DNA from: Synechococcus sp. CCY 9618
GTDB lineage: Bacteria > Cyanobacteriota > Cyanobacteriia > PCC-6307 > Cyanobiaceae
DNA length: 64,000 nucleotides
Assembly: GCF_019038415.1 (NCBI RefSeq)
Contig: NZ_JAFKRG010000034.1
Location: forward strand, 62,001-126,000
Direction: 5' to 3'
Position numbers and translations under genes: made by a program. The notes under the pieces are model-generated. The model did no database searches, had not been told where the DNA came from, and saw nothing but the letters and a program-made list of their open reading frames with translations. Positions within the stretch are counted from its first letter, which is position 1; every line of letters begins with the position of its first letter. Below, one piece after another: positions 36,037 through 51,870 of the stretch.

Positions 36037-37203
36037 TTGAGCGACCCGTCCGATCCCATTGATCTGCCGGGTCAGCTCGAGGCCCTGACGGGGATGCTGA
36101 CGGACTCCAATCCCCAGCTGTACCGCCATCTGGCCCTCTACCTGCAGGTGCTGCGCCAGGTCCTGCCGCAACGGGTGAGCCAGGCCTGTTTCCATCTGGC
36201 CACCCAGGTTCACCCGCAGCGCTATGCGGAGCTGTCGCAGGAACGGCGCAAGTGGCTCCACCGTCAGGTGGAGCAGCTGGTCCGCCGTTGCTCCAGCCTG
36301 CTCACCGTCGAGCAGCTGGCCATCCTCGCCGACCAGATCGCCCGCGAGAACCAGCGGCGCAGGCGTCACGACCAGCAGCAGATCCTGACGGAACTCACCC
36401 TGGCCGGGGATCCGGAGCCCATCCCCGGCTCTGATGTGTCTGCCGAGCTGCTGCCTCCCGGTTCTGTGCAGCTGGCCCTGGCTCCGCCGCTCTCCGGAAT
36501 GGCGTTCGCCTGGAGCCGGATCGGACACGGCGACAGCCGGCAGGAGGAGGATGGGGAAGAACCCGAGGCCGAAACCGCCGAGACAGGCCTGGAGGATCAC
36601 CAGAGCCTGGCCAGAGTCCTGGCGGCGGGGCAGACCGATCGCAGCGACGAACCTGATCCGACCGGGGAGGAGACCGGCACGGAAGCGGCCACCCAGGGCG
36701 ACGGGAGCATGGACGGTCAGAGTCCGGACTCCATCTGGCAACCGGGACGGTTGCCCCGGGATCCCCGCCAGGTGCTCCGGTGGATGGACGGCATGGAGCT
36801 GGCCCTGGCACGGCGGCTGCGCAACCTCTCCCATGCCATCAACGTCGAACTGCTGCGGGCCGGGGTGAACCGCAGTCTTCTGCCGGTGAGCCTGCTCGAT
36901 GCGGTGCTGACCGGCCAGCTGGACACGATGGCGGCTCCTCCCAACCTGCTGCGGCTGCCACTCCCCTTCGGTGGAGGTGTCGGCAGCACCCAGGCCCAGA
37001 CCATGGCGGTGCTGCTGCGGGCCGTGGAAATGGAACTGGAGGAGCCCCGCCTGAGAACCTGCCGGCGGCGGCTGCAGCAGCATCGCCAGGAGGTCCGCAG
37101 AATGGCCCAGCAGTTCCGTCGCCTGCAAGGGCGTCTCCGGATTCACCAGGCCGAACAGCTTTGGCTGCAGGACATCCGCCCCACCCCGAACCCGGACGAC
37201 TGA
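36037..37203 (+). CDS. Hypothetical coiled protein between tsf and recG, 388 aa
   Basis: TTG 36037, preceded by CCGGAG, opens a frame starting LSDPSDPIDLPGQLEALTGM. Residues ~10-115 are helical and rich in Gln/Arg/Leu (RQVLPQRVSQACFHLATQVH, QEREE-like RRKWLHRQVEQLVRRC). About 150-250 is an acidic, Glu/Asp/Gly/Thr-rich linker. The C-terminal ~135 residues are helical again (ELALARRLRNLSHAINVELL, EEPRLRTCRRRLQQHRQEVR) and end in a charged coiled coil. No enzyme motif, signal peptide or membrane segment is seen. I do not recognise it. Confidence 0.72.
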   Translation: MSDPSDPIDLPGQLEALTGMLTDSNPQLYRHLALYLQVLRQVLPQRVSQACFHLATQVHPQRYAELSQERRKWLHRQVEQLVRRCSSLLTVEQLAILADQIARENQRRRRHDQQQILTELTLAGDPEPIPGSDVSAELLPPGSVQLALAPPLSGMAFAWSRIGHGDSRQEEDGEEPEAETAETGLEDHQSLARVLAAGQTDRSDEPDPTGEETGTEAATQGDGSMDGQSPDSIWQPGRLPRDPRQVLRWMDGMELALARRLRNLSHAINVELLRAGVNRSLLPVSLLDAVLTGQLDTMAAPPNLLRLPLPFGGGVGSTQAQTMAVLLRAVEMELEEPRLRTCRRRLQQHRQEVRRMAQQFRRLQGRLRIHQAEQLWLQDIRPTPNPDD

Positions 37204-39713
37204 GCAGCTCGGCGGCGGCTGGTGCTGGGCTCGCGTCCGGCTCCCCGACGTTCGACGCCTGGTGCACCCCCCTGCAGCAGGCCTGTCGGCTGGAGGCCGA
37301 ACGGGGCTTCGGGGATCTTCAGGGGCGTCAGGACTGCTTCAGCGGCTTCGTTGGCGCAGCCCTGGCGGCTCCGGCGGCAGGGCTCGGGGCACGGGAGCGG
37401 CAACGGCTGACGAGCCTGGCCAGGGAGTTCGCCGGCTACGGCCGACTGGCCCTGGGACACCGCCAGTCGCTGGTCCGGCGGCTGCGCCAGATGCTCCATG
37501 ACCTGCGGCTTCAGCGCCAGGAGGCGCGTCCGGTGGGTCCGCCCCGCCTGCGGCTGGCGACTCCACCCGAGGCCGCGCCCGCCGCCGGGCGGTCGACGCA
37601 GGGGCTGACAGCGGAGACGCCCCTGGCGGAGGTGGCCGGCATCGGTCTGAAGACGGCCACCCGGATGGCCGCCCTCGGCCTGCTGGTGGTGCGCGATCTG
37701 GTGCACCACTATCCGCGCGACTATCTGGATTACGCCCATCTGGTGCGGATCGCGGCCCTGGAGCCGGGGCGTACCGCCACCATCGTCGCCACGGTGCGCC
37801 GTTGCCATGCCTTCGGCAGCCCCCGCAACCCCAACCTGGCCATCCTGGAACTGCACCTCCAGGACGTCACGGGACGCCTGAGGGTCTCCCGCTTCTTCGC
37901 CGGCCGTCGTTTCAGCAGTCCGGGCTGGTTGAAGTCCCAGCAGCGGCTGTACCCGGTGGGCGCCACCGTGGCGGTGAGCGGCCTGGTGAAGGAGAGCCCC
38001 TACGGGCCCTGCTTCGCCGATCCGCTGCTGGAGGTGCTGGAGGCGCCTGGGGCAGCGGTGCGCTCCGAGCAGATCGGTCGGCTCGTTCCGGTCTATGCCC
38101 TCACCGAGGGGCTCAGCGGTGAACGGCTCGGCAGGGCGGTCGCCGCCCTGCTGCCCGAGGTGGGCCGCTGGGATGATCCCCTGCCGGAGTCCCTGCGGCG
38201 GGATCTGGACCTTCAACGTCGTGGCGAGGCCCTTCAGGGCATCCACCGACCCCTCGATCGGGCCGCCCTCCAGGGCAGTCGGCGGCGCCTGGTGTTCGAC
38301 GAGTTCCTGCTGCTGCAGCTGGCCCTGGGGCAGCGACGGGAACGGCTGCGCCGGCTGCCCGCCCCACCCCTGCTGCTGCCCGGCGGCGGCGGCGACCTGG
38401 TGGGTCGGTTCCTGGACCTGTTGCCCTTCGCCTTCACCACCGCCCAGAGCCGGGTGCTGGCGGAGATCCGCGCCGACATGGCACGCCCCCAGCCCATGGC
38501 GCGGCTGGTCCAGGGGGATGTGGGCAGCGGCAAGACCGTGGTGGCCCTGGCGGCCCTGCTGGGCGCCATCGAGGCCGGCTGCCAGGGGGCCCTGATGGCC
38601 CCCACCGAGGTGCTGGCGGCCCAGCATTTCCAGAAGCTGGCCCAGTGGCTGCCGCAGCTCAACGTCAGCGTCGAGCTGCTCACCGGCTCCACCCCCTCCC
38701 GGCGGCGGCGCCAGGTGCTGCAGGATCTCGCCAACGGGCAGGTGAAGCTGCTGGTGGGCACCCATGCCCTGCTGGAGGACCCGGTCCAGTTCGATCGGCT
38801 GGGGCTGGTGGTGGTGGACGAGCAGCATCGCTTCGGCGTGCGTCAGCGCAACCGCCTGCTGGCCAAGGGGTTGCAGCCCCACCTGCTCACCATGACCGCC
38901 ACGCCCATACCCCGCACTCTGGCCCTCTCGATCCACGGGGATCTGGACATCAGCCAGATCGATGAGCTTCCGCCCGGTCGCACCCCGATCCGGACACGGC
39001 TGCTGCGTGGTTCCGAGCGCCCCTCCGCCTGGGAGCTGGTGCGTCAGGAGGTGGCCCGGGGCCAGCGGGCCTATGTGGTGCTGCCGTTGGTGGAGGATTC
39101 GGAGAAGCTGGATCTGCGCTCCGCGGTGGAGGTGCACCGCCATCTCGAGGAGGAGGTGTTTCCCGCCCTGAGCGTGGGGCTGCTGCACGGCCGCATGACC
39201 GGTGAGGAGAAGCAGCGGGCCATCGCCGCCTTCCAGGACGGTCGCTCCCAGGTGCTGGTCTCCACCACGGTGGTGGAGGTGGGAGTGGACGTGCCGGCGG
39301 CCAGCGTGATGGTGATCGAGCATGCCGAGCGTTTCGGCCTGGCCCAGCTGCACCAGCTGCGGGGACGGGTGGGCCGGGGCTCCGCGGCCTCCCACTGCCT
39401 GCTGATCCATGAGGGCGACAACCCCATGGCCCGCCAGCGCCTGGAGGTGCTGGCCCGCAGCAGCGACGGCTTCGAGATCGCCGAGATGGATCTGCGCCTG
39501 CGAGGCCCCGGTCAGGTGCTCGGCACCCGTCAGTCGGGTCTCCCGGACCTGGCCCTGGCCAGCCTCAGCGACGACGGGGCCGTGCTGGAGGAGGCCCGCA
39601 CAGCGGCCCGGCTGATCCTGGAGCAGGACCCCGACCTGGAGGGCCATCCCGGCCTGCGTGAGGCCCTCGAAGCCCAGCGCCGCCGATCGGTGGAGGCGGC
39701 CCAGCTGAACTGA
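37161..39713 (+). CDS. recG: ATP-dependent DNA helicase RecG
   Basis: RecG regresses stalled forks and branch-migrates Holliday junctions. The wedge/OB domain lies around residues 150-340 (LHHYPRDYLDYAHL-type region, LQDVTGRLRVSRFFAGRRF). Helicase motifs follow: QGDVGSGKTVVALAALLG (I), APTEVLAAQHFQKLAQWLP (Ia), VVVDEQHRFGVRQR (II, DEQH), MTATPIPRTLALSIHGDLD (III), GRMTGEEKQRAIAAFQDGRS, VSTTVVEVGVDVPAASVMVI (V) and QLRGRVGRGSAASHCLL (VI). The N-terminal ~140 residues are a cyanobacterial extension. The start is unsure: TTG 37161 is the nearest ordinary start, but a CTG at 37200 overlapping the previous stop is also possible. Confidence 0.95.
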   Translation: MAAGHPPHPEPGRLSSSAAAGAGLASGSPTFDAWCTPLQQACRLEAERGFGDLQGRQDCFSGFVGAALAAPAAGLGARERQRLTSLAREFAGYGRLALGHRQSLVRRLRQMLHDLRLQRQEARPVGPPRLRLATPPEAAPAAGRSTQGLTAETPLAEVAGIGLKTATRMAALGLLVVRDLVHHYPRDYLDYAHLVRIAALEPGRTATIVATVRRCHAFGSPRNPNLAILELHLQDVTGRLRVSRFFAGRRFSSPGWLKSQQRLYPVGATVAVSGLVKESPYGPCFADPLLEVLEAPGAAVRSEQIGRLVPVYALTEGLSGERLGRAVAALLPEVGRWDDPLPESLRRDLDLQRRGEALQGIHRPLDRAALQGSRRRLVFDEFLLLQLALGQRRERLRRLPAPPLLLPGGGGDLVGRFLDLLPFAFTTAQSRVLAEIRADMARPQPMARLVQGDVGSGKTVVALAALLGAIEAGCQGALMAPTEVLAAQHFQKLAQWLPQLNVSVELLTGSTPSRRRRQVLQDLANGQVKLLVGTHALLEDPVQFDRLGLVVVDEQHRFGVRQRNRLLAKGLQPHLLTMTATPIPRTLALSIHGDLDISQIDELPPGRTPIRTRLLRGSERPSAWELVRQEVARGQRAYVVLPLVEDSEKLDLRSAVEVHRHLEEEVFPALSVGLLHGRMTGEEKQRAIAAFQDGRSQVLVSTTVVEVGVDVPAASVMVIEHAERFGLAQLHQLRGRVGRGSAASHCLLIHEGDNPMARQRLEVLARSSDGFEIAEMDLRLRGPGQVLGTRQSGLPDLALASLSDDGAVLEEARTAARLILEQDPDLEGHPGLREALEAQRRRSVEAAQLN

Positions 39714-45030: not shown

Positions 45031-46146
45031 TCAGTGCAGCAGGGCCACCTCCACGCACAGGCCGGGGCCGAAGGCCATGGCCAGGCAGGGGCCGGGTGCC
45101 CCGCTACGCCGCAGTCGCTCGAGGATGAACAGCAGCGTCGGGGAGGACATGTTGCCGCAGTCCCTGAGCACCGAGCGGGAGGGTTCGATCAGCGTGGGGG
45201 CGAGTCCGAGGGCGTCCGTCACCGCCGAAAGGATGCGGGGCCCGCCGGGGTGCACCGCCCAGCTGCCGATCGCCGCCAGATCCAGGCCATGGCCGGCCAG
45301 CCAAGCCTCCAGCCAGGGCCGCAGATGCTCCCCGATCAGCTCCGGCACCCGGGGCGAGAGGTCCATGGCGAAGCCGTGGTCCTCGATGCCCCACGACATG
45401 GCCTCGGCGCTGGCGGGCACGACCAGGGAGCCACTGGCGATCAACCGCCCCAGCGGGGGAAGGCCTGGCCCCCCCACCGTCCTCTCCCCTCCACAGGCCA
45501 CCAGGGCGGCGGCCCCGTCGGCGAACAGGGCATTGGCGACGATCCGCTGGGCATCCCAGCCGTACTGGAGGTGCAGGCTGCAGAGCTCGACGGCGCACAG
45601 CAGAACGCAGGCCTGCGGATCGGCGCCGATGAACCCGGCGGCCACCCGCAGACCGTTGAGGGCCCCATGGCACCCCATGAAACCCACGTGGGTGCGGGCC
45701 ACATCGGCGGCCAGGGGCAGGGCGGCCATCAGGGCGAGATCGACCCCGGGTGCCTGGAATCCCGTGCAGGAGACCGTGACCAGGTGGGTGATCCGTTCGG
45801 GGGGCAGCCGGGCCTGGGCGAGGGCGGCCTGCACGGCCCGCAGGGCCAGGGGGGCCGCTTCGCGGGCATAGCGCCGCATCCGTTCACCCGTGCCGGGGCT
45901 GGTGGGACCGAAGAAGGTCTGGTGGCAGGCGGCGTCGCTGTCTCCGTCCGGACCGCCGGGCTCAAGCAGGACGCTGTGGCGCGTGGCGACGCCGGAGCGG
46001 CGGTGGAGCGTCTCCAGCAGCCGCAGCTGGGTCGGGGAGCGGCCCTGGTTCGGCAGGGCCACCTCGGCAGCCAGAGCCGAGGCCTCTCCCTGGGCGATGC
46101 GATGGGGGGGCAGGGCCGTGCCCAGGCCGTGGATCGTCAGGGCCAT
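45031..46146 (-). CDS. Type III polyketide synthase (chalcone/alkylresorcinol synthase family)
   Basis: A 371-residue homodimeric ketosynthase. The catalytic triad is intact: Cys159 in THVGFMGCHGALNGLR, His299 in GSWAVHPGGPRIL and Asn332 in DCGNMSSPTLLF. The second half also keeps GWDAQRIVANALFADGAAAL and AMAFGPGLCVEVALLH. The bacterial alkylpyrone/alkylresorcinol group extends fatty acyl starters with malonyl-CoA. The gene is third in a minus-strand operon with an FAD oxygenase and a methyltransferase, overlapping the former by 10 bases. The trio fits methoxylated alkylresorcinols such as the hierridins known from Cyanobium. Product is inferred, not proven. Confidence 0.92.
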   Translation of the reverse strand: MALTIHGLGTALPPHRIAQGEASALAAEVALPNQGRSPTQLRLLETLHRRSGVATRHSVLLEPGGPDGDSDAACHQTFFGPTSPGTGERMRRYAREAAPLALRAVQAALAQARLPPERITHLVTVSCTGFQAPGVDLALMAALPLAADVARTHVGFMGCHGALNGLRVAAGFIGADPQACVLLCAVELCSLHLQYGWDAQRIVANALFADGAAALVACGGERTVGGPGLPPLGRLIASGSLVVPASAEAMSWGIEDHGFAMDLSPRVPELIGEHLRPWLEAWLAGHGLDLAAIGSWAVHPGGPRILSAVTDALGLAPTLIEPSRSVLRDCGNMSSPTLLFILERLRRSGAPGPCLAMAFGPGLCVEVALLH

Positions 46147-47291
46147 GGGTCCAGGCTCAACTGTTCCAGGGTTGCACCTTCGAGCTGATGAAACAGCGGC
46201 GCCGCCAGCGCCGGCCAGCGGGCCACCAGCGCCAGCAGGCGGCGACTCAGCCCGGGGCGCCTCAGGGCGAAGGCGAGGCCGTGGCAGAGGCGCTGCCTGG
46301 AACCGATCAGACGGGCATGGCGGCGGGACCATTCCCGCTCGATCGCCACGGACCAATCCTCCTGGCCGCGCAGCACCAGGGGCACCGCCGCCAGTGCCCC
46401 CACCAGTCCCCAGCCCATGCCCTCGCCGGTGAAGGGCTCCACGTAGCCGGCGGCATCCCCCAGCAGCAGCAGGCGCTCGGCCGAGGGCGGGGTGCAGCGG
46501 CGGGTGAGGGCCGGGGTGGCGCGCCAGCAGGCTGCCTCCGCTTCCGGCAGGGGATCGAAGCCTGCGTCCGCCAGAACCCCGGCGCTGGCGGCGGCAGGTC
46601 CCCCGGCGGCGATCACATGGGCCCGGTCGAAGGCGGCGGCCAGGTTGAGGTCGCCGGTTTCGTTCCGCACCAGCCCCACGTACCCGTGGCGACCGATGGC
46701 CATGTGGATCGTCCCCGCTGCGTAGCCGCCGCTGTCGCCGGCCATCCTGCAGCCGGCGCCGATCCTGGCGCCCGGGCGGATCCGCGTCCGGATCGGCAGG
46801 GACTGGTCGAGGCCGGGGCTGCCAAGCCCTGTGGCCAGCAGCACCACCCGGCCGCTGGTGCTCCAGTGGTGGTCGCCGCTGCGCAACAGCACCTGCCGGC
46901 CCCCGGTGCAGGGGGCCGTCACGGTGGCCTCGGTGTCCATCCGCAGCACGGCGCCGGCGGCCTGCGCAGCCCCGCAGAGGGCCTGGTCGAAGCGCGCCCG
47001 GGAGATGGAGAGGCCCATGGGCAGTCCCAGTTCCGCCCCCTGGCCCCCCAGGCCGAGCCGAAGCCTGGCGAGGGGCACCCCCCCGAGCCCTGCGACCAGC
47101 CCGCCGAGGCCCGCCTGCTCCAGCGCCCTGAGGCCGACCCCGCTCAGGCAGCTGCCGCAGACCTTCCAGCGGGGAAACGTGCGCTTCTCCACCAGCAGCA
47201 CCCGCAGGCGGTGGCGGGCCAGCTGCTGGGCGGCCAGGGCCCCGGCAGGCCCCGCCCCGAGCACGATCACGTCCCACTCCGGAGGATTCAT
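46137..47291 (-). CDS. FAD-dependent oxidoreductase (geranylgeranyl reductase/aromatic hydroxylase-like)
   Basis: A 384-residue group A flavoprotein. The dinucleotide-binding motif is VIVLGAGPAGALAAQQLARH (about 8-27), followed by LVEKRTFPRWKVCGSCLSG with a Cys pair, and the second FAD motif LLLGDAAGYVEPFTGEGMGW near 285. The fold is shared by ChlP-type reductases and aromatic monooxygenases. Between a methyltransferase and a type III PKS, ring hydroxylation of an alkylresorcinol is the simplest role. Start ATG 47291 overlaps the methyltransferase stop by four bases. Confidence 0.88.
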   Translation of the reverse strand: MNPPEWDVIVLGAGPAGALAAQQLARHRLRVLLVEKRTFPRWKVCGSCLSGVGLRALEQAGLGGLVAGLGGVPLARLRLGLGGQGAELGLPMGLSISRARFDQALCGAAQAAGAVLRMDTEATVTAPCTGGRQVLLRSGDHHWSTSGRVVLLATGLGSPGLDQSLPIRTRIRPGARIGAGCRMAGDSGGYAAGTIHMAIGRHGYVGLVRNETGDLNLAAAFDRAHVIAAGGPAAASAGVLADAGFDPLPEAEAACWRATPALTRRCTPPSAERLLLLGDAAGYVEPFTGEGMGWGLVGALAAVPLVLRGQEDWSVAIEREWSRRHARLIGSRQRLCHGLAFALRRPGLSRRLLALVARWPALAAPLFHQLEGATLEQLSLDPWP

Positions 47292-48022
47292 CGGTGGGCC
47301 GATGTGCCGTTCGGCTGGTGCCAGCTCAGCAGGTACCGCTCGGGCCAGCTGCGGCGGACCCGGGCGCCCTCCAGACCGGCACGGGCCGCCAGGTCCCGCA
47401 CTTCGTTCAGACGAAAGGCTCCCTGCACCGAGACCGGCCCATCGAACCGGACGATCGCTGACCGGCTCAGCAGACGGCAGCCCACCCAGGCCAGCCCGTA
47501 GCCGAGGGGGCTGCGGATCAGGTCGTTGACCAGCACCAGGGAACGGCTGGCCTGGGCCATGCGGCCCAGCAGATCGATGGCGGCTCCCTCGTCGAGGTGA
47601 TGCAGGAACAGGGAGCACAGGATCACGTCGTAGCTCTCGGGCAACCGGTCCTTGAGGACATCGGCCTGGAAGAAGGTGGCATTCAGATCGCGCTCGGCCG
47701 CACGGCGGCAGGCGATGGAGAGCGCCGTGGGGCTGAGGTCGCAGCCGTCGACCTGCACCGCCAGGCCTGCTGAGCGGGCCTTCCCGGCCAGGGCGATGGT
47801 GTTGTCGCCACCACCGCAGGCCAGATCCAGAACCCTCAGGGGCCGGCCGTGCCGCTCCCTGGCCAGCACATCGATCGGCCCGAACAACGATCCGACCGCG
47901 CCGCTGATGGCATTGATGCGTCGCAGCCCTGCCAGGGCCTCGGCATGGGCCACCGGATCGATGCCGGGCTGATCCATCATTTCGGCTTGCCGGTGCCGCT
48001 GGGCCAGGGGTTGGAAGCGCAT
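47288..48022 (-). CDS. Class I SAM-dependent methyltransferase of the type III PKS operon
   Basis: A 244-residue Rossmann methyltransferase. Motif I is RVLDLACGGGDNTIALAGKA (about 63-82), motif II VDGCDLSPTALSIACRRAAE, and the post-motif block ESYDVILCSLFLHHLDEGAA. The C-terminal SWPERYLLSWH resembles tailoring O-methyltransferases of this operon type. It is first in the operon. Two O-methylations are needed for hierridin-like products; one enzyme may do both or another may act elsewhere. Confidence 0.87.
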   Translation of the reverse strand: MRFQPLAQRHRQAEMMDQPGIDPVAHAEALAGLRRINAISGAVGSLFGPIDVLARERHGRPLRVLDLACGGGDNTIALAGKARSAGLAVQVDGCDLSPTALSIACRRAAERDLNATFFQADVLKDRLPESYDVILCSLFLHHLDEGAAIDLLGRMAQASRSLVLVNDLIRSPLGYGLAWVGCRLLSRSAIVRFDGPVSVQGAFRLNEVRDLAARAGLEGARVRRSWPERYLLSWHQPNGTSAHR

Positions 48023-49628: not shown

Positions 49629-51017
49629 TCACTTGCTGGCCAGCACCGGCTCCCGCAGGGACTCTGGCCCCGGTTCCGGATCCACGGCGGTGGTGGGGCG
49701 CCCGCCCGCGGGCTTCATGGCGGAGCGGGGGGCATCGGCCGCCAGGATGGCCTCGGCCTCCTCGGCGGAGCGAACGGCACTGGGCACCGGCCTGTAGCCG
49801 GCCGGGGCCAGGGCCTGACCCCGCAGCACCGCGCCGAGGGTGAGAACCGTCAGCTTGATCTGCTGCCAGGGGTTCATCATCACCACCCGCTTGTAGAGGT
49901 AGCTGTCAAAGGTGAGGCGCTGCACGTCCTTGTCGTCGCACATCTCGACGAAGGCCTCCCGGGCCGCATCGTTGCTGTAGAAAATGTTCTGCAGCAGTTC
50001 GAGCACCTTGTAGGTGGCGCCGTACTTGCGGTCCCACTTGCGGATGTAGACCTTGAGATTCTTCTCGGTGGGGATGCGGGTGCCGGCGGCGCTGGCCGCC
50101 ACGATCTCCTCGGCGCACATGCGGCCGCTCTTGGCGGCGAAATAGATGCCCTCGCCGGAGCTTTTGGTCACATAGCCGGCGGCATCGCCCACCAGTGCCA
50201 TGCGGCCCACCACCCGGCGGGGACGGGGATGTTCCGGAATCGGATGGGCTTCCACCTTGATCACCTCACCGCGAAGCAGCCGGCGGCTGGCCCGTTCCCG
50301 GATGCCCTTCTGCAGTCCCTTGATCAACGACTGGTTGGCCTGCATGGTGCCGGTTCCCACGGCCACGTGGTCGAACTTGGGGAAGACCCAGGCGTAGAAA
50401 TCAGGGGAGACATCGGTGCCGACGTACATCTCGGCCAGATCCTCGTAATAGGCCATCTCCTCGGCCGGCAGGCGGATCCGCTCCTGGAAGGCGATGGCGA
50501 CGTTGTAGTCGCCGGCATCCATGGCCTTGGCCACCCGGCTGTTGGCCCCGTCGGCGCCCACGATCAGGTCGACCTCGAGGGTCTTGAGTTCGCCGGTGGG
50601 CCCACCCGAGGAGTAGTCGGCGTAATGAAGGGTGTAGGGACCCTGCCGGTTGCTGCCGGTGTCGATGCTCTGCACCAGGCCATTGACCAGGTGGGTGCCG
50701 AGCTCGGCGGCCCGGTTGCGCAGGAAGCCGTCGAGCACCTCGCGCCGGCACATGCCGATGTACTCGTTGCTGTTCTCCAGATGGATGTCCACTTCCCGGT
50801 TGGAAGGGGAAATCATCCGCATGTTCCGCACTTTGCGGTCGATGATCGATTCGGGCAGATCGAATTCCTCCACCATGCAGAGGGGGATCGCCCCGCCGCA
50901 GGGTTTGGCGTTGTCAAGCTTGCGCTCGAACAGCCAGGTCTCGATGCCGGCCTTGGCGAGAACTTCCGCAGCACAGGAACCGCTGGGGCCGCCGCCCACG
51001 ACTGCCACTCGCAACAT
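49629..51017 (-). CDS. chlP: Geranylgeranyl diphosphate reductase
   Basis: ChlP reduces three double bonds of geranylgeranyl groups to phytyl for chlorophyll and tocopherol. The 462-residue flavoprotein shows VAVVGGGPSGSCAAEVLA at the N-terminus, ERKLDNAKPCGGAIPLCMVEEF, DLIVGADGANSRVAKAM and LVGDAAGYVTKSSGEGIYFA. These distinguish it from the related oxidoreductase in the PKS operon. The C-terminal ~60 residues form a Pro/Ala/Glu-rich tail longer than in plants. It is convergent with the CNNM gene. Confidence 0.96.
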   Translation of the reverse strand: MLRVAVVGGGPSGSCAAEVLAKAGIETWLFERKLDNAKPCGGAIPLCMVEEFDLPESIIDRKVRNMRMISPSNREVDIHLENSNEYIGMCRREVLDGFLRNRAAELGTHLVNGLVQSIDTGSNRQGPYTLHYADYSSGGPTGELKTLEVDLIVGADGANSRVAKAMDAGDYNVAIAFQERIRLPAEEMAYYEDLAEMYVGTDVSPDFYAWVFPKFDHVAVGTGTMQANQSLIKGLQKGIRERASRRLLRGEVIKVEAHPIPEHPRPRRVVGRMALVGDAAGYVTKSSGEGIYFAAKSGRMCAEEIVAASAAGTRIPTEKNLKVYIRKWDRKYGATYKVLELLQNIFYSNDAAREAFVEMCDDKDVQRLTFDSYLYKRVVMMNPWQQIKLTVLTLGAVLRGQALAPAGYRPVPSAVRSAEEAEAILAADAPRSAMKPAGGRPTTAVDPEPGPESLREPVLASK

Positions 51018-51144: not shown

Positions 51145-51870
51145 GTGTCCGCCCCAGGCGTCGGTGATGACATTCCTCTGGCCCGGCGCACCACGCCCCG
51201 CCCCCGCAGGCAAGCCTCACTCCGGAAGCGGCTGGCACGGCTCCTGCTCACCAGCGCCCTGCTGGCCGGCGGGGGCGTGCTGCTGCTTCTGGGGCCCCTC
51301 CGCAGCCTGATCGCCCCACCCCCACCGGTGCCAGGCCTGGCGGCGCGGCTCGGCCCGGACGGCCGGCTGCTGGGCCATTTCCCCTATCCCGACACCGACC
51401 AGGCGGATCTGGTCAGCATCGCTCCCGGGCTGCAACTGCGGCCCGAGGCGGCCCGTGCCCTGGAGGCCATGCGCGCGGCGGCGGACGCTGATGGCATCGC
51501 CCTGTCCGTGCTGAGCGCCTACCGCGGTCGCGATCTCCAGCAGCAGCTGTTCTTCGATGTCAAGGCCGAACGCAACCAGACCTCCGTGGACCGGGCCCGG
51601 GTGAGTGCCCCGCCCGGGTTCTCGGAACACAGCACCGGCTACGCGGTGGATCTGGGCGATGGCCGACGGCCGTCCACCAACCTGATGGAGAGCTTCGAAG
51701 ACACCGAGGCCTATCGCTGGCTCGATCGCCACGCCGCCCGCTTCCACTTCGTGCGCTCCTTCCCCAGGGGGAACCGCCAGGGGGTCAGCTACGAGCCCTG
51801 GCACTGGCGTTTCGAGGGATCCACCGAAGCCCTGGAGATGTTCGAACCGGCCCAGCGGCTGGACCGTTGA
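51145..51870 (+). CDS. M15B D-alanyl-D-alanine carboxypeptidase (VanY-like), membrane-anchored
   Basis: A 241-residue protein with a basic N-terminus and one membrane segment (LLLTSALLAGGGVLLLLGPL). The peptidase domain (about 95-235) has ALSVLSAYRGRDLQQQLFFD, GFSEHSTGYAVDLGD (SxHxxGxAxD zinc motif) and YEPWHWRFEG (catalytic Glu and His). It would trim the terminal D-Ala from peptidoglycan stem peptides. The start is GTG 51145 with GGGAG overlapping upstream. The 300 bases after its stop hold only the typA leader. Confidence 0.88.
   Translation: MSAPGVGDDIPLARRTTPRPRRQASLRKRLARLLLTSALLAGGGVLLLLGPLRSLIAPPPPVPGLAARLGPDGRLLGHFPYPDTDQADLVSIAPGLQLRPEAARALEAMRAAADADGIALSVLSAYRGRDLQQQLFFDVKAERNQTSVDRARVSAPPGFSEHSTGYAVDLGDGRRPSTNLMESFEDTEAYRWLDRHAARFHFVRSFPRGNRQGVSYEPWHWRFEGSTEALEMFEPAQRLDR

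Follow-up and report, generated by a model that had tools for sequence, protein, structure and literature searches.

The closest described systems are the hierridin operons of cyanobacteria and a related operon of planctomycetes. The published hidABC genes lie in the order hidA (methyltransferase), hidB (oxidoreductase), hidC (type III PKS) (PMC8086630, PMC10896814), and 47 hierridin-like clusters were counted in 517 cyanobacterial genomes (PMC8086630). The planctomycetal type III PKS operon accounts for 58 of 96 PKS genes, and the PKSs of Gimesia maris, R. baltica and S. maiorica, which come from the operon or a two-gene variant, produced C15 and/or C17 (pentadecyl-/heptadecyl-) alkylresorcinols in Corynebacterium glutamicum (PMC10896814). 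The PKSs of P. limnophila and A. californiensis, which cluster with HidC and are encoded outside the operon, gave no detected product (PMC10896814).

We analysed 64,000 nucleotides of Synechococcus sp. CCY 9618 DNA (contig NZ_JAFKRG010000034.1, positions 62,001 to 126,000), here called the window. A sequence-only reading had described three genes coupled by 4- and 10-base overlaps, and the frames and overlaps were found where it had placed them:

47288-48022, minus strand, hidA-type SAM methyltransferase (MT), 244 aa, leading gene of the operon, PF13649
46137-47291, minus strand, hidB-type FAD-dependent oxidoreductase, 384 aa, PF01494
45031-46146, minus strand, hidC-type type III PKS, 371 aa, PF00195/PF02797

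As read from the sequence, hidA and hidB share 4 bases (47288-47291) and hidB and hidC share 10 (46137-46146). The Pfam assignments are firm for the MT, the FAD protein and the PKS alike, and in the 2.93 Mb genome only the PKS matches PF02797. With start codons chosen by a script rule, identical 4- and 10-base overlaps were found in all six nearest loci from named genomes (L032-L037), and 65 of the best 80 loci listed by the named-genome scan, under seven phylum-level labels, have the same gene order with short gaps. Gene order and overlaps that recur in this way are not due to chance. A promoter scan found no sigma-70-like site (0.1 expected); terminator-like sites numbered four (0.8 expected), none of them at the operon end. 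The window carries an intact operon of the ordinary hidABC (hierridin) type, and we consider it quite probable that this operon makes a methoxylated alkylphenol like hierridin B from an ordinary fatty acyl chain.

The proposal that the PKS has an intact Cys-His-Asn triad held. In the alignment, Cys159, His299 and Asn332 line up with the triad of PKS18; Cys159 is kept in 107 of 107 homologous PKS rows and His299 and Asn332 in 106 each, so that every triad residue is kept in at least 106, the 107 being 110 rows less three of 330 aa or shorter, with some genomes present twice from overlapping collections (L008/L032, L009/L033, L007/L037 and others). The exception for both His299 and Asn332 is L026 (G036), where the PKS match is divided over two frames, probably by a draft-genome frameshift, or else because the copy is decaying. 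PKS18 Cys205, the residue mutated in the C205F structure 1tee and one which we take to have a role in the acyl tunnel, corresponds to Cys189 of the window PKS and is Cys in 106 of 107 rows. Met261 sits opposite the gatekeeper Cys of PKS18 and is Met in 106 of 107 rows. At this position, that of CHS Phe265, Larsen et al. (PMC8086630) describe Met in the HidC clade and Cys in the PKS18-like clade; Met261 is therefore the HidC-clade residue, and the PKS18-like cytochrome b5 clade was rejected on the same ground. DpgA (3,5-dihydroxyphenylacetyl-CoA synthase) was likewise rejected: NF042429 is the best NCBIfam match, but its 163.3 bits fall far short of the cut-off of 425.

Rates of dN/dS were obtained for five of 15 pairs, none of them for HidA. 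They were 0.04 and 0.07 for hidC (versus L032 and L037) and 0.11-0.18 for hidB (versus L032, L033 and L035), with dS above 1, and thus saturated, throughout. On these values the intact hid copies look to be under purifying selection.

In the PKS tree (82 rows: the window, L027, L028 and 79 of the best 80 loci), the window PKS fell in a picocyanobacterial clade of 26 rows (SH-aLRT 95). Nested within it, a subclade of seven rows (SH-aLRT 100) unites the window PKS with, among others, Aphanothece cf. minutissima CCALA 015, A. saxicola and Synechococcus sp. CS-1332. HidB and HidA fell in the matching picocyanobacterial clade, with SH-aLRT 99 and 98, in trees of 69 and 65 rows from which shorter ones had been removed. 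All three are quick trees without bootstrap, their support being SH-aLRT. Because the HidA and HidB trees agree with the PKS tree, no operon gene appears to have been exchanged with another phylum, to the extent that such trees can show. Among the best 80 loci listed, PKS identity was 75-83% inside the window's own subclade, 51-63% to other picocyanobacterial rows and 43-60% to planctomycete rows. Product details may differ from those of other picocyanobacteria, since the window PKS is not much nearer to them than to planctomycetes.

The hierridin reading is supported by this family membership, which is the basis on which we infer the product as well as its ring hydroxylation and its methylations. 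HidC would be primed with a long-chain fatty acyl thioester (about C14-C18) supplied by primary metabolism, add three malonyl units and close a resorcinol ring via C2-C7 aldol condensation. HidB would then oxidize the ring, most likely by FAD hydroxylation, and HidA would O-methylate the phenols with SAM, the end product being a methoxylated alkylphenol similar to hierridin B. The chain length, the resorcinol rather than the pyrone, the number and position of the methyl groups, and the acyl-ACP or acyl-CoA form of the starter are likewise parts of the predicted scheme.

The alternative that survives best keeps the operon and changes the decoration: the MT would act on a ring carbon and HidB would not hydroxylate, giving a C-methylated alkylresorcinol as suspected in G. 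maris. When the MT and oxidoreductase of the G. maris operon were co-expressed, one methyl was added (+14 Da), two hydroxyls stayed free and the methyl was probably on carbon; no hydroxylated product is listed (PMC10896814). Further, the window HidB and HidA stand only moderately closer to the remaining picocyanobacterial rows than they do to those of planctomycetes. The domain matches of HidA are PF13649 at 8.5e-16 and NF004851 at 238 bits, slightly below its cut-off of 243. All three window proteins nevertheless cluster with picocyanobacteria rather than planctomycetes, and a picocyanobacterium bearing the hid operon is known to make hierridin B, which is O-methylated (PMC10896814). We therefore regard C-methylation as unlikely, though as the foremost competitor to the hierridin-type product.

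Very unlikely, in our estimate, is that HidC makes alkylpyrones or another ring and that the operon yields decorated pyrones. The AlphaFold model of the PKS has a pLDDT of 91.3, and among the nearest solved structures, by sequence as well as by fold, are PKS18 and PKS11, mycobacterial enzymes of the alkylpyrone type; pyrones are also not excluded by Larsen et al. for some cyanobacterial enzymes (PMC8086630). Against this, planctomycete homologues yield resorcinols (PMC10896814), the gatekeeper is Met rather than Cys, and the flavoprotein and MT companions would suit a phenol.

The sequence-only reading had called HidB an FAD oxygenase. The FAD-dependent part stands (PF01494), but the oxygenase part is unproven, HidB-type proteins matching reductases, monooxygenases and halogenases. 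HidB has a GG-reductase superfamily match under the cut-off. Structure work on each protein drew on 38 of the best 80 loci. With a good AlphaFold model (pLDDT 89.9), the top fold matches were the flavin halogenases PltA (Z 38.0, rmsd 2.5 over 361 residues), Mpy16 (37.8), ChlB4 (37.7) and Bmp2 (37.5), followed, among others, by the geranylgeranyl reductase-like 3oz2 (Z 33.8, 3.0 over 355) and by aromatic hydroxylases (32-33.5). These matches cover flavin halogenases and monooxygenases, and the fold search did not separate a reductase from an oxygenase. By sequence profile the top matches were 3oz2, the best, and the halogenase CmlS, with nearly equal E-values. Flavin halogenases carry the motif W.W.IP. 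HidB lacks it and has GYVGLVR in its place, which in the profile aligns with CmlS DGWVWMIP and in which Gly203, Tyr204 and Gly206 are invariant across 39 rows. HidB also has no counterpart of the Lys common to CmlS, FasV and Bmp2 near profile position 75, which presumably has a functional role in halogenases. That HidB is a flavin-dependent halogenase chlorinating the ring is scarcely credible: its nearest folds are halogenases (PltA 38.0 versus 33.8 for 3oz2), and the activity would explain the chlorinated hierridin C, whose chlorination is described as of unknown mechanism (PMC8086630), but both the Trp motif and the Lys are missing and the best profile match is a reductase. Halogenase activity is thus unlikely and a hydroxylase the better guess, because the Trp motif is absent despite the halogenase-like fold. 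Hydroxylation is also the best guess because hierridin B carries a third ring oxygen (PMC10896814), and HidB is probably a ring hydroxylase. Co-expression did not reveal the role of the planctomycete HidB, and that of the G. maris oxidoreductase is left open in PMC10896814.

In the window, the operon is flanked on one side by glyS and on the other by a CNNM-like gene and then chlP, and the same setting was found in L032, L033 and L037. The PKS adjoins glyS in five further relatives (L003-L006, L010); in six less similar relatives (L011, L014, L015, L017, L018, L020) glyS is not beside the PKS within 1.5 kb. Two genus members retain remnants at the glyS/CNNM locus. In G008 (L021, about 1432-2298) an in-frame deletion has fused the first hidA codons to hidC from about codon 107-113, so that hidB is gone and what is left, 288 residues counted from the hidA start, is a relic of the operon; in G004 hid stubs remain. 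Among 11 genus members examined via glyS, five have glyS next to the CNNM-like gene with a gap of about 0.07-0.2 kb, no space for the operon: L112 (G014), L113 (G006), L114 (G002), L116 (G035) and L117 (G029). Four of the other six have chlP beside glyS, and two have neither in the stretch examined. BLASTN found no hid sequence in the gaps of L112-L114 save one 23-base match (E 0.005). By glyS, G029 and G035 are less similar (68%). Insertion at the glyS/CNNM site in the window's subgroup, with later loss in some members, would fit this pattern. The operon is dispensable, not essential, since same-genus relatives carry relics (two) or empty sites (five). The hierridin-type pathway thus gains a picocyanobacterial lineage with a well-defined locus. 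Since relatives of the same genus keep the whole operon, retain remnants of it or lack it cleanly, strain pairs exist for testing the function of the phenolic lipid.

In the window's family sample, a clear PKS match (E 1e-40 or better) was found in 70 of 201 genomes, its own included, with fragments in G008 and G180; this tally counts PKS matches alone and not hidA or hidB. A looser tally of 158 of 201 also counts many weak matches, with E-values of about 1e-4 to 1e-12, which were taken for FabH. In a set of 60 genomes, 35 (own included) had a PKS match at 0.001, and the 25 at 1e-80 or better all belong to the window's genus.

The 65 loci in hidABC order among the best 80 listed carry the labels Planctomycetota (30), Cyanobacteriota (23), Gemmatimonadota (4), Acidobacteriota (2), Hydrogenedentota (2), Elusimicrobiota (1) and Melainabacteria (1), with two unassigned; the labels were taken from the titles of the records, most of them MAGs, where contamination is possible. 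The other 15 comprise six cut by a contig end, five with the PKS alone, two with MT and PKS, and two other arrangements. One Gemmataceae locus (L084, 5001-7975) has the order hidC, hidA, hidB, which Larsen et al. give as an alternative arrangement in cyanobacteria (PMC8086630). The loci labelled Acidobacteriota, Gemmatimonadota, Elusimicrobiota, Hydrogenedentota and Melainabacteria (L055, L056, L075, L076, L083, L089, L093, L100, L102, L111) go beyond the two phyla for which PMC8086630 and PMC10896814 are cited here. A literature search for hierridin in such phyla gave no paper mentioning hierridin among the 15 of 97 that were listed; we do not claim that the wider spread is unpublished. The order under these five labels hints at a lipid function wider than cyanobacterial defence.

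Most of the seven labelled phyla are non-photosynthetic. A long shot is that the hid product is mainly a membrane redox lipid and not an allelochemical, HidB taking the ring to the quinol stage and HidA methylating it to form a methoxy-alkyl-quinol/quinone pair. Such a pair would shuttle electrons or quench oxidants, which would explain recurrence under seven phylum-level labels yet dispensability in some strains. As far as the papers cited here go, the exact product, the HidB reaction and the function appear to be questions common to the whole hid family rather than specific to the window.

The surroundings were also consistent with the proposals that no dedicated starter-loading gene lies nearby and that primary lipid metabolism provides the acyl starter. 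Nine frames at 37-57 kb were scanned; seven match housekeeping functions (sulfite reductase, glyS, a PaeA/CNNM-like transporter, chlP, typA, lptB and an lptF/G-like gene) and two, 37143-39644 and 51145-51867, gave no family match. The chlP gene (49629-51017), about 1.6 kb from hidA, belongs to the broad superfamily of FAD reductases that also takes in hidB. The genome has three AMP-binding matches. One is an acetate-CoA ligase, another resembles a long-chain fatty acid ligase but scores below the family cut-off, and the third is weaker. The long-chain ligase-like gene is the only one of its kind in the genome and lies on another contig. A starter drawn from primary lipid metabolism is also the published proposal (PMC8086630).

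The srsABC genes of Streptomyces griseus encode a PKS, a methyltransferase (SrsB) and a flavoprotein (SrsC) acting on alkylresorcinols, and SrsB is a membrane methyltransferase of another family than HidA. The likeness to the window, PKS plus methyltransferase plus flavoprotein, is one of general description and not of compared sequences. SrsA is named in PMC10896814. The cyl-type [7.7]paracyclophane clusters likewise have a cyanobacterial type III PKS forming an alkylresorcinol, but they use a type I PKS, a halogenase and dimerising genes; a cyl-type cluster was rejected, as no type I PKS, halogenase CylC or CylK was found among the nine frames at 37-57 kb, and the cyl-type gatekeeper is Gln/Asn (PMC8086630) and that of the window PKS Met. 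The planctomycetal operon matches that of the window in its three genes and in their order, with PKS rows 43-60% identical among the best 80 loci listed; it differs in belonging to another clade and in the G. maris MT, which probably C-methylates. Closest is hidABC of Cyanobium sp. LEGE 06113, together with the hierridin-like clusters. Its HidC is absent from the best 80 loci listed, and the window falls in a separate subclade; the likeness is drawn from published gene order and clade, not from the LEGE 06113 sequence itself. The limitation to three genes, presented earlier as a peculiarity, is no difference, because the known hid operon also has three. The suggested comparison with the Cyanobium hid cluster came out well: gene content and order equal those of published hidABC, the gatekeeper is Met, and all three proteins fall in the picocyanobacterial clade. 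In sum, the window operon belongs to a known, widespread pathway and is not a new system.
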